36,588 bases of DNA. Origin: Treponema sp. (GTDB lineage: Bacteria > Spirochaetota > Spirochaetia > Treponematales > Breznakiellaceae). Both the position numbers and the translations under genes were made by a program. The notes beneath the pieces were generated by a model. That model saw nothing but the letters and a program-made list of their open reading frames with translations, had not been told where the DNA came from and did not search any database. Below are positions 26,861 through 30,875 of the stretch, piece after piece. Within the stretch, counting starts at the first letter, position 1. Each line of letters starts with the position of its first letter. The stretch covers positions 1 through 36,588 of the forward strand of contig JAISMC010000186.1 of assembly GCA_031276965.1 (NCBI GenBank), given 5' to 3'.

Positions 26861-27949
26861 TTACAATTTAGCAGCCTTTCCGGCCTTAACCTGATATACC
26901 AGCGTATCAGATTTACAGTAACGTTTATAGGGTTCTTCCGGCAGAAAAGTAAAAAAGGCCTGATCATATTGAGGCATTACCGAAAGGAATTTTCGCCGTT
27001 TTTCACCGTCCAGTTCCAGAAGGACATCATCCAGGAGAAGAACCGGGTTTACTCCGGTTTTTTCAGAAAAACGCCGAGCCTGGGCGGAACGAAGGAGCAG
27101 CGCCAGAAGCCGGCGCTGACCCGTAGAGGCATGGCCGGAAAATTCCGCATTCCCCCGGGTAAATATATAACGATCCCGGTGAGGACCGGAAAGACAGATC
27201 CCCGCCGCAGCGTCTTTTTCCCGGCAGGATCCTAAAAGGTCCCGAATTTTCTCTACGCTCTGGAATTTCCAGGAGGGAACATAGCGGATGGTAATACCCG
27301 CAATGCCGGAAACTTCTTCGTAAAGGGGACCAAAGGTATCCGAAAAATCAGCCGCCGCCGCCGCCCGGTTTTCCATCAGCCTTAACCCATATTCCGCTAT
27401 CTGGGGATCAAGAGTATCCAGCATAGTCGTATCTGGCCGGCCAAATCCTTCCTTTAATACTGCGTTCCGGGTTTTAAGAACTCTGCGGTATTTTCTTAAA
27501 TCGTCTAAGTAAAGGGGATTATAAAGACTCTGACTTTGATCAAAAAACCAACGCCGCCGTTCCGGAGAACCGGAGATAAATTCCATATCTTCATGACAAA
27601 AAACAATGCAGGGAATTACCGATAAAAGTCCTTTTCTATCTTCGATCCGTTTCCCGTCTATGATAATGATTTTTTTACTTTCCTCATATTTAATCAATAC
27701 CTTTTCGTAAAGGGGGCTTTTAAGAACCGCAGCGACAGAAAAATTCTTCTCTCCGGTACAGGCTAAATCTCCATCCCGGACACTGCGGAAAGAAGAAGCA
27801 TAAGAACAAAAATAGAGAGCTTCCAAAAAGTTAGTCTTACCCTGACCATTCTCGCCAACCAAAAAAATATCTTTTCCTGTGGTATCTACTTCTACATCCG
27901 CAATATTCCGGAAAGCGGTAGTTCGCAGAGAAGAAAACCGCATGGGCAT
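26861..27949 (-). CDS. recF: DNA repair and recombination protein RecF
   Basis: A 362-residue SMC-like ATPase that binds gapped DNA and loads RecA with RecOR. The N-terminus reads FSSLRTTAFRNIADVEV, followed by Walker A GENGQGKTN (about 33-41). The signature region is SGPHRDRY and STGQRRLLALLLRSAQ, and Walker B is PVLLLDDVLLELD near the C-terminus. The start at 27949 overlaps the last base of the dnaN stop (TAATG); a second in-frame ATG at 27943 is possible. There is no separate ribosome site, so it is coupled to dnaN. Length and motifs are normal. Confidence 0.95.
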   Translation of the reverse strand: MPMRFSSLRTTAFRNIADVEVDTTGKDIFLVGENGQGKTNFLEALYFCSYASSFRSVRDGDLACTGEKNFSVAAVLKSPLYEKVLIKYEESKKIIIIDGKRIEDRKGLLSVIPCIVFCHEDMEFISGSPERRRWFFDQSQSLYNPLYLDDLRKYRRVLKTRNAVLKEGFGRPDTTMLDTLDPQIAEYGLRLMENRAAAAADFSDTFGPLYEEVSGIAGITIRYVPSWKFQSVEKIRDLLGSCREKDAAAGICLSGPHRDRYIFTRGNAEFSGHASTGQRRLLALLLRSAQARRFSEKTGVNPVLLLDDVLLELDGEKRRKFLSVMPQYDQAFFTFLPEEPYKRYCKSDTLVYQVKAGKAAKL

Positions 27950-29049
27950 TAATCAAGCTGCATGGGCATTATAATGTGAAAAAAGTCTTTCTCCGGAGAT
28001 GGCATCAATGTGACAGCTTTATTAGGATCGGAAAATTGTATGCTTACCTCTTCTTCGCTCATAATCTTAAAGGGTTCCTCAATGTACCGGTAATTCAAAG
28101 CCATAGAAATATCAGGACCATCGTACTTGCAGGAAATCTCCTCCTTGGCGGCTCCAATATCGCTTTCTTCAGAGGAAATAGTCATCACCCCGGAACTTAC
28201 CCCCATATATATACGCCGGGATTTCTGTTCTACTAAAATAGAAACCCGCCGCAGAGCATCCAGCATCTCGACACGGTTTACCGTGATAATATTAGTTTGA
28301 TTTTCAGGAATAACCCGTTTATAATTGGGAAACTGTCCTTCAATCAATACCGAAGAAAGCTGATAAGATCCAAACTGAACAAAGACTGTTTTATCAGTTA
28401 CAGAGACAGAAATAGATCCTTCGTCTCCAGCCCGTTTTATAATAATCGCAAGAATCTTAGGAGGAATGATAATACCAGTAAATTCCTTAATATTATCATA
28501 ATTCTTGCTTACAAAGGCCAGCCGCCGGCCATCAGTAGCCACCATGATGAGTTTATCATCCTGCTTTTCAAAAAATACGCCGTTCATAAAATAGCGGGTT
28601 TCGTCATCAGAAACGGCAAAAACAGTTTGAAGAATCATATCCTTAAAATCTCTGACAGGTAAATCAAAAAAACCTGCATTACCGGAAACCGGAAATTCAG
28701 GAAATTTATCGGAAGCTATGCTTTTAAGCTGAAACCTGATCTTCTTTGCCGCGGGCTTAATATTTATCCTGGCGTCGTTTTGCTCAAATTCTAAATCTCC
28801 CTCAGGAATTGAATTCAGTATTCCCAGAAATTTTTCCCCTATTACCGTAGTGGATCCCGGCTCAGTTACAGTTACCGGAACCTTAGTTTCAAAGTTTACC
28901 TTTATATCCGTTGCCTTAATAACAAGAAAATCGTTTTCTGCATTAAGGTAAATATTTGACAAAATAGAAATAGGATTCTTTGAAGATATAATCTCCTGGG
29001 CAATGGCAATCTCTTTAAGGAGTACGCTTCGTTCACAGGTAAATTTCAT
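27949..29049 (-). CDS. dnaN: DNA polymerase III beta subunit (sliding clamp)
   Basis: 366 residues, the normal size for the three-domain ring clamp that tethers DNA polymerase III. The N-terminus MKFTCERSVLLKEIAIAQEI, the segments FMNGVFFEKQDDKLIMVATDGRRLA and VLIEGQFPNYKRVIP, and the C-terminal end FFHIIMPMQLD are all clamp hallmarks; the last is the usual hydrophobic MPM-type ending. The ATG has AGGAG at the right distance. It follows dnaA by 193 bases, which hold DnaA boxes and a trio-like run, and may have its own promoter (29127-29157). Confidence 0.97.
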   Translation of the reverse strand: MKFTCERSVLLKEIAIAQEIISSKNPISILSNIYLNAENDFLVIKATDIKVNFETKVPVTVTEPGSTTVIGEKFLGILNSIPEGDLEFEQNDARINIKPAAKKIRFQLKSIASDKFPEFPVSGNAGFFDLPVRDFKDMILQTVFAVSDDETRYFMNGVFFEKQDDKLIMVATDGRRLAFVSKNYDNIKEFTGIIIPPKILAIIIKRAGDEGSISVSVTDKTVFVQFGSYQLSSVLIEGQFPNYKRVIPENQTNIITVNRVEMLDALRRVSILVEQKSRRIYMGVSSGVMTISSEESDIGAAKEEISCKYDGPDISMALNYRYIEEPFKIMSEEEVSIQFSDPNKAVTLMPSPEKDFFHIIMPMQLD

Positions 29050-29075
29050 GTTTATCTCCTCTTATATTTATATAT

Positions 29076-29114
29076 AAGTAGTAGTTGTAGTAGGGTCTTC
29101 CTAAATGTGGAAAA
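29076..29114. other. Candidate DNA unwinding element: DnaA-trio run with adjacent DnaA box
   Basis: Read 3' to 5' on the plus strand, positions 29093 back to 29076 give GAT-GAT-GTT-GAT-GAT-GAA, the DnaA-trio pattern bound as single strand by DnaA. A spacer of 12 bases separates it from a DnaA box TTTTCCACA (minus strand, 29106-29114). An AT-rich run follows on the far side toward dnaN (29050-29075). The order box, spacer, trios, AT-rich DNA, dnaN follows the arrangement known from Bacillus-type origins. Confidence 0.65.
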
Positions 29115-29126
29115 CCGGTATAAATC

Positions 29127-29157
29127 ATTATACTATATATAATTATAGTTTTGGCAA
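29127..29157 (-). promoter_or_regulatory. Candidate dnaN promoter
   Basis: On the minus strand, TTGCCA (29152-29157) and a perfect TATAAT (29127-29132) are 19 bases apart; an alternative -10, TAGTAT, gives 16. It lies between two DnaA boxes, so DnaA could modulate it. Confidence 0.45.
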
Positions 29158-29159
29158 TA

Positions 29160-29188
29160 TGTGGAAAAATTATCTTTTTTTCTCCACA
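29160..29188. other. Two further DnaA boxes in the dnaN-dnaA gap
   Basis: TTTTCCACA on the minus strand (29160-29168) and TTCTCCACA on the plus strand (29180-29188) each differ at one base from the consensus TTATCCACA. With 29106-29114 there are three boxes within 85 bases. Confidence 0.6.
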
Positions 29189-29242: not shown

Positions 29243-30607
29243 TCAAGGTTTGATATTCGATTCTATAATTTTTCTTTTAAGGCTTTCTACTTTTGTATTC
29301 AGCGCCGGATCGGATCGGATTCTTTCTTCTATTTTTTGACAGGCGTGCATTACTGTGGTATGATCCCGGCCGCCGAAGGTTTGGCCTATTTCGGTGGTGG
29401 AAAATTCGGTTATTTCCCGGATTATATACATAGCGAGTTGACGGGGAAATACAATGGTAGCCGTTCTTTTCTTGCCCTTAAGATCGTTAGAGTAAAGATT
29501 ATAATCTTCCGCTACTACCCGCTGTATGATGTCGATGGATATGTTGGTCTGTTTAGACGGAGCGAATATGTCTTTCAACCGTTTTTGGGCTATTTCCAAG
29601 GTAATAGGTTTTCCCATCAGCTCTACATAGGCGGTCAAGGTGGTTAAGGCCGATTCTAAATCCCGAACATTGGAGGATACATTTTTACCTATTAGCGAGA
29701 CTACTTCATCGGGGATAGTTACTTTTAGTTCTTCTATTTTCTTTTTCAGAATAGCGCAGCGGGTTTCGTAATCCGGGGGCTTAAGATCCGCTTTAAGACC
29801 CCTTTCAAAGCGGTTGCGAAGTCTGTCAGTCAGGTTTTTTAATTCCGAAACTGGTCTATCAACGGCAAAGATGATCTGTTTTTTGGCATTATACAGGGCT
29901 TCGTAGGTAAAAAAAAGCTCTTCCTGGGTTCCTAATTTGTTTTCCAGAAAGTGAATATCGTCTATCAAAAGTACATCTACGTGGCGGTACTTATTTTTGA
30001 AGGCCGGCTGGCTCCCTTCCTTTACAGACTGGATAAATTCACTGGTAAAGTTCTCTGCTGATATATAGATTATCTTATTTGATGAATTCTCGTAGATAAA
30101 GTTGCCGATAGCCTGCATCAAATGAGTCTTACCCAGACCGACTCCGCCAAAAATAAGAAAGGGGTTGTAGGCGGCTCCGGGATTTTTGGCGACCGCTTGA
30201 GCCGCATTGACGGCAAAGGCGTTATTATCCCCGATAATGTACTTATCAAAGGTATAGTCTTCCCTAAGCTGAGGATGGCGTGTCTTTTTTTCCTGGATTA
30301 CAGGAACCGTCGCTTTGGGGGTTGGTTTAGGAGTTTCGGCGCCGAAGAGTTTGGCAGCCTTTTTGACCTCAAAAAATACAGATATTTTTTTGCCGGTTAG
30401 GTCCTTTAGTTTGGTTTCTATGTAATGCTGATAGCGTTGCTTAATCTGGTTCCGGTAAAAAATTGAAGGAACTGCGATGGTGATGCTCTCTTCGGCGGCG
30501 CTGAGATATTCCAGATTGAACCACATGGCGAATTCCTGTTCAGGAAGCTCGCTTTTAATTTGATTCACCGTTTCTTTCCAGAATATTTCATAATTCCAAT
30601 CAGCCAT
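29243..30607 (-). CDS. dnaA: Chromosomal replication initiator DnaA
   Basis: 454 residues with all four domains. Domain I (about 1-80) mediates self-association. A short linker with Lys/Pro-rich stretches follows. The AAA+ domain III (about 115-330) has Walker A GGVGLGKTH, Walker B VLLIDDIHF and sensor segments. Domain IV ends with GRDHTTVMHACQKI, which reads the DnaA box. The protein starts replication by binding the boxes on both flanks of its own gene. The ATG has GAGGA upstream. A perfect DnaA box at 30655-30663 overlaps the probable promoter (GATAAT on the minus strand), so autoregulation is likely. Confidence 0.98.
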   Translation of the reverse strand: MADWNYEIFWKETVNQIKSELPEQEFAMWFNLEYLSAAEESITIAVPSIFYRNQIKQRYQHYIETKLKDLTGKKISVFFEVKKAAKLFGAETPKPTPKATVPVIQEKKTRHPQLREDYTFDKYIIGDNNAFAVNAAQAVAKNPGAAYNPFLIFGGVGLGKTHLMQAIGNFIYENSSNKIIYISAENFTSEFIQSVKEGSQPAFKNKYRHVDVLLIDDIHFLENKLGTQEELFFTYEALYNAKKQIIFAVDRPVSELKNLTDRLRNRFERGLKADLKPPDYETRCAILKKKIEELKVTIPDEVVSLIGKNVSSNVRDLESALTTLTAYVELMGKPITLEIAQKRLKDIFAPSKQTNISIDIIQRVVAEDYNLYSNDLKGKKRTATIVFPRQLAMYIIREITEFSTTEIGQTFGGRDHTTVMHACQKIEERIRSDPALNTKVESLKRKIIESNIKP

Positions 30608-30654: not shown

Positions 30655-30875
30655 TTATCCACAATAATGAAAGGAGTTGACTAGTCCAAAAAATACAAAA
30701 AATCACAAAAAAGTTCAAACCGCCCTTAATATGTGAATAGTAATATTGATATAATTCTATATATTACAAAGAATTATAAAAATAAAAATATCACTTATAT
30801 TTCTTTTTCAATATGACATGGGACGCCCAATAATATTTTCATTATAGTCAGCAATTTATCCACAACTTATACACA
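30655..30875. other. Origin DnaA-box cluster in the dnaA-gyrB gap
   Basis: The 30608-31139 stretch has no gene. It holds two perfect DnaA boxes TTATCCACA (30655-30663 and 30856-30864) and one TTATACACA (30867-30875), all on the plus strand. Between them (about 30680-30850) the DNA is strongly AT-rich with long A and T runs. To the right (30900-31030) I see nothing recognisable. Together with the dnaN-side boxes this marks the chromosomal origin. Confidence 0.75.

Follow-up and report, generated by a model that had tools for sequence, protein, structure and literature searches.

How the chromosome of a termite-gut-type spirochaete is opened for replication is the question raised by the gap between the genes dnaA and dnaN in a Treponema sp. 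contig of 36,588 nucleotides, the whole of which is referred to here as the window. In Bacillus subtilis, the basal unwinding system (BUS) of the chromosome origin oriC consists of DnaA boxes 6 and 7 and an array of DnaA-trios. The original prediction, made from the letters of the window, held that the gap contains an element of this type. We confirm that the window contains a genuine BUS-type opening element, in which the third trio is non-canonical. The kind of element is known, and a broad bacterial distribution of BUS elements was predicted already in 2021. What is new is the breadth of its occurrence in spirochaetes, its persistence at origins separated from dnaN, and its variations.

Layout of the dnaA–dnaN gap

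The gap is 193 bp long, has an A+T content of 73%, and lies between genes whose identities agree with those given in the original prediction (Table 1). Read on the minus strand from dnaA to dnaN, the box TTTTCCACA is followed by a 12-bp spacer, the triplets CTA CTA CAA CTA CTA CTT, and AT-rich DNA. The plus strand of the triplet run is AAG TAG TAG TTG TAG TAG, which in the 3' to 5' direction gives GAT GAT GTT GAT GAT GAA, exactly the series that had been claimed; the claimed spacing of 12 bases from a near-consensus DnaA box and the AT-rich DNA beyond the trios were also found. On the minus strand, the run is directly followed by ATATATAAATATAAG, then by a Shine-Dalgarno sequence and the ATG codon of dnaN, which is positioned 26 bp past the last trio.

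The likeness to the Bacillus system that had been proposed holds for the box, spacer, orientation, trio strand, and position, all of which are as published (PMC8287927, PMC10721633). The window and B. subtilis share the location between dnaA and dnaN, the orientation of the box, a short spacer with a GC end, trios on the opposite strand that are read 3' to 5', and AT-rich DNA past them. Sequences with up to two mismatches to TTATCCACA were counted as DnaA boxes, and the box of the window has one. The distance from box to first trio was allowed to be 0–16 bp, with a peak at 10–13 bp, and is 12 bp in the window. The run is of the 3'-GAT-5' type, stands opposite the TTATCCACA reading, and has GAT as its box-proximal trio. 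Unlike B. subtilis, the window has few DnaA boxes in the gap, and its strong box is TTTTCCACA. It is a single strong box, for which the only tandem partner on offer is TTAGGAAGA in the spacer, with four mismatches; a second tandem box is dispensable in vitro.

The position of the gap is probably that of an origin. The cumulative GC skew of the window drops to about 29 kb and climbs after 31 kb. In the complete genome of Breznakiella homolactica, the record of which does not begin at dnaA, the skew calculated from 20 sampled 20-kb blocks is lowest in the block at 3.14–3.16 Mb, adjoining dnaA at 3.133 Mb.

Table 1 Features of the window and of related loci
Feature	Position	Strand	Remarks
dnaA, initiator gene	29243-30607	-	TIGR00362
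dnaN, sliding clamp gene	27949-29049	-	TIGR00663
recF	26861-27949	-	
gyrB, gyrA	elsewhere in window	+	
BUS DnaA box TTTTCCACA	29106-29114	-	plus-strand reading TGTGGAAAA; 1 mismatch to TTATCCACA
12-bp spacer TTTAGGAAGACC	29094-29105	-	GC-rich end
Weak box-like TTAGGAAGA	inside 29094-29105	-	4 mismatches, counted by eye
Six DnaA-trio triplets	29076-29093	+	same run in closest relative, L066
AT-rich stretch past trios	29061-29075	-	presumed beginning of unwound region
Putative dnaN Shine-Dalgarno region AGAGGAGA	29055-29062	-	from sequence; adjoins AT-rich stretch
Second TTTTCCACA box	29160-29168	-	54 bp upstream of BUS box
Inverted box TTCTCCACA	29180-29188	+	1 mismatch
Palindrome, copy 1	29121-29145	.	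4 mismatches to TAATTCYTTATANTATAARGAATTA; centre 19 bp upstream of BUS box
Palindrome, copy 2, upstream of dnaA	30752-30776	.	2 mismatches
dnaA-upstream DnaA boxes	30655-30875	+	TTATCCACA at 30655 and 30856, TTATACACA at 30867
Relocated modules	G127:C40:14951-14986; G038:C185:20989-21024; G041:C107; G042:C271; G043:C25		
Mirrored-trio loci	L221, L222, L279, L281, L283-L285, L137, L138, L047		

Uniqueness and conservation of the element

A joint score was calculated from the box mismatches, the spacer, and the six trios. None of 20,000 dinucleotide shuffles of the gap reached the score of the native sequence. The degenerate pattern TTWTNCACA-N10..14-YTAYTANNNYTRYTR has a single match in the 2.7-Mb genome, located at the gap, with zero control matches, and a similar pattern gave no match in a scan of 400 kb of the B. 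homolactica genome.

The dnaA loci of other spirochaetes were identified by similarity, and the regions upstream of dnaN were collected from genomes of the same family, order, and phylum. The original prediction had proposed conservation of the triplets in related genomes as its test, and they are conserved: of 159 distinct spirochaete sequences from upstream of dnaN, 124 have the layout of box, spacer, and six trios. The spacer of these 124 loci is 12 bp long in 89 cases, 11 bp in 27, 13 bp in six, and 10 bp in two. Of the real dnaN-upstream sequences, 74% passed the joint cut-off, compared to 0 of 3,180 shuffles. The trio run of the closest relative (L066, with a DnaN 88% identical) is the same, including CAA, which makes an assembly error an improbable source of the CAA triplet in the window. 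A pattern search of the family matched 80 of 200 genomes, compared to eight control hits, and the matching places that were listed adjoin dnaN in nearly all cases; among the remaining genomes are incomplete assemblies and sequences that deviate from the strict pattern. Triplets of the trio type are simple sequence, and the gap is rich in A+T, which is what an origin of the run by chance in low-complexity intergenic DNA would draw on. This explanation is already refuted by the conservation of the register across dozens of genera, and together with the shuffles and the uniqueness in the genome, this leaves it with practically no probability.

The proposal that the opening mechanism is conserved throughout the phylum holds in part. 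The element is plain in the order to which the window belongs and clear in several other spirochaete families (for example L175, L181, L182, L187, L189, and L207), but the dnaN-upstream regions of Borrelia-like (L196-198), Brachyspira-like (L199-202), and some other sampled genomes did not show it. A strict phylum-wide pattern search is too stringent to establish presence, as it misses known loci, including that of the window. The BUS, which was established in Bacillus and a small number of other species, is here extended to many spirochaete genera. The 1.1-Mb genome of a sister family (L184) has a short trio remnant upstream of dnaN, TTATCCAGA, with the 9 bp TTA CTA TTA.

Persistence of the module at origins without dnaN

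The trio run is located 26 bp from the dnaN start codon and adjoins the Shine-Dalgarno sequence, so that the triplets might be conserved as a leader or ribosome-binding region of dnaN, unrelated to origin opening. The departure of dnaN from dnaA provides a natural experiment on this point. In the draft genomes of genus g14 and of G127, dnaN no longer adjoins dnaA. The regions upstream of the unlinked dnaN genes (L077, L088, L092, and L086) lack trios, whereas a near-perfect box-and-trio module is present downstream of dnaA, at a distance of about 0.3 kb in G042, about 1.3 kb in G041, and 2.5 kb in G043, all on draft contigs. The module of two other draft genomes stands alone next to a DnaA-box array. 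Its contig in G127 carries neither dnaA nor dnaN, and in G038 it is found on another contig, beside unrelated genes for a chemotaxis receptor and a solute-binding protein. The arrays next to the module in G038, G042, and G127 contain seven to nine exact DnaA boxes. Because the module stays with dnaA or with the box array when dnaN is unlinked, it is an element of the origin rather than a leader of dnaN. The leader explanation, for which the genomes with unlinked dnaN show the reverse of what it leads one to expect, was rejected and is in our judgement very improbable. The origin appears to be separated from dnaN, and in two of the genomes also from dnaA; the placement of contigs in these draft assemblies is provisional. 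In a search for an RNA element, the region had no match in Rfam.

The non-canonical third trio and the DnaA protein

The run contains four exact GAT trios, including trios 1 and 2, and one GAA. The third trio is 3'-GTT-5' (CAA in the sense of dnaA) and has no adenine in the middle, in contrast to the NAN of B. subtilis. A published search rule asks for at least three consecutive 3'-NAN-5' trios starting no more than 16 bp from the box (PMC8287927). Since trio 3 lacks the middle adenine, the rule does not recover the window at its own register, where two NAN trios are followed by GTT, and its sole match in the gap falls in an unrelated palindrome. At the register of each element, the rule recovers 95 of the 124 loci and misses 29, so that surveys may undercount BUS origins. 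The authors of the rule expected deviant trios without a middle adenine, and three NAN trios are therefore a rule for searching and not a definition of function.

Deviations of the middle base at trios 1 to 6 occur in 0, 3, 17, 21, 5, and 4 of the 124 loci, respectively. When each genus is counted once, trios 3 and 4 account for 18 of 24 deviations (p = 4e-5 against an even spread). The recurrent weak trio may reflect tolerance of one weak contact or avoidance of repeat slippage.

DnaA bound to the box feeds an oligomer onto the trios and captures the first two bases of each, and the middle base is contacted through Asn187 of the B. subtilis protein (PMC8287927, PMC10721633). The DnaA encoded in the window retains E185, I192, K224, and E230 at the positions of the B. 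subtilis trio-contact residues E183, I190, K222, and E228 of domain III, as well as the arginine-finger motif DRLRxRF. The position of B. subtilis N187 is occupied by S189, which sets the window apart from 45 of 47 spirochaete DnaAs compared, in which it is asparagine. The position of R202 is lysine, as in 44 of 47 relatives, and that of I193 is valine. Ser189 and the non-adenine third trio may be linked, but deviant trios occur also together with asparagine-bearing DnaAs.

A conserved palindrome upstream of the box

When the loci are aligned on the box, a 25-bp palindrome with the consensus TAATTCYTTATANTATAARGAATTA is found at positions -31 to -7, upstream of the BUS box at a fixed distance of 6 bp. 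In a set reduced to a single sequence per genus, a centre at -19 gives pairing of the arms at 6.85 of 12 positions, compared to 3.2–4.4 for other centres, and the match of arms within a locus exceeds that of permuted arms (0 of 5,000). Similar palindromes occur at 31 genome sites (including L235-L254), some of which immediately follow tRNA genes or adjoin long G/C tracts; with about 30 other sites in the genome, the palindrome is not specific to the origin. A function as the -10 box of the dnaN promoter (TATAATGAATTA) was considered and rejected, since the palindrome persists at the relocated origin without dnaN (L223, L282); the covariation of its arms and its genome-wide occurrence also rule it out.

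No 30-bp stretch of the window is less stable than positions 29119–29149 around the first copy, and the second copy comes next in this respect. On the trio side, the best 30-step interval ranks within the lowest 0.13% of the 36.6 kb in stability. The box and trios could be real and yet only assist, with melting beginning in the AT-rich palindrome that is flanked by the two TTTTCCACA boxes. Such a division of tasks would be in line with the low stability of the palindrome, its fixed distance from the box, and the unwinding element (DUE) of Thermotoga maritima, which has separate modules for unwinding and binding. However, the origins of B. subtilis, Clostridioides difficile, and Helicobacter pylori open on the trio side of the box, and the palindrome recurs at the other genome sites, those next to tRNA genes included. 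We consider initial melting in the palindrome unlikely.

Proposed mechanism of origin opening

Based on the layout, conservation, and DnaA residues, a mechanism of origin opening that resembles that of the B. subtilis BUS can be proposed, and we put the probability that the element is the opening site of the chromosome origin at roughly 90%. The helix-turn-helix domain of DnaA (domain IV) would bind the TTTTCCACA box, and from there further DnaA-ATP subunits would be added along the plus strand, covering the six trios. These subunits may flip the guanine/adenine pair out of each trio and stretch the plus strand. The array probably tolerates its non-standard third trio as a single weak step. 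The duplex would melt into the AT-rich DNA just before dnaN, allowing the loading of helicases.

The closest layout studied experimentally is CCTACTACTATTACTACTA of C. difficile, for which DnaA-dependent melting was measured in the dnaA–dnaN gap (PMC7561715). The oriC2 of this bacterium (5'-CACCTACTACTATTACTACTATGA-3') carries an almost identical triplet run, also between dnaA and dnaN, but all its triplets keep the middle adenine of the trio strand, whereas the window has CAA at trio 3, and the two organisms belong to different phyla. The BUS in oriC2 of H. pylori also combines a box and trios in a Gram-negative bacterium and is essential there in vivo (PMC8287927). The DUE of T. maritima with its eTrio resembles the window in having DnaA-bound TAG repeats near boxes.

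Several observations count against the mechanism. Trio 3 lacks the middle adenine, and the DnaA of the window has serine at the position that contacts it. Thymine substitutions at trios 1–3 together impaired oriC of B. subtilis (PMC10721633). In T. maritima, the annotated DnaA-trios are merely supportive, and the essential TAG repeats are others, farther from box 1 (PMC10316083). Within the gap, DNA stability is lowest not on the trio side but in the palindrome upstream of the box.

Mirror-image trios in related genera

Genomes of g14, g16, and g46 contain a second trio run on the opposite strand, past a short AT core, for example CTACTACTACTACTAATATTATATATATAAATTTAGTAATAGTAGTAG. Mirrored trios are found mostly in genera with distant or absent dnaN. 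Their excess over all loci is modest, with 20 of 126 at p < 0.05, and a search of the window did not find them (p = 0.43). No description of mirrored trios was found in the open-licence literature, and together with the palindrome upstream of the box, they look more novel than the original claim. We speculate that the family might use a modified BUS, characterised by a weak trio 3 or 4 and, in the related genera, by a mirror run across an TATATATA core with DnaA on both strands, although we hold this to be doubtful. If it were true, DnaA may assemble on both strands, with one filament per helicase. The recurrent weak trio, the exchange of asparagine for serine in DnaA, and the mirrored trios offer direct tests of how strictly trios are recognised and of the loading of DnaA on two strands.

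Other DnaA boxes of the locus

A box-like signal 54 bp upstream of the BUS box, where the window has its second TTTTCCACA, is kept across relatives. The DnaA boxes upstream of dnaA suggest a two-part origin or autoregulation of dnaA. The window has three consensus boxes in this region, and its relatives average about two within 400 bp upstream of dnaA.
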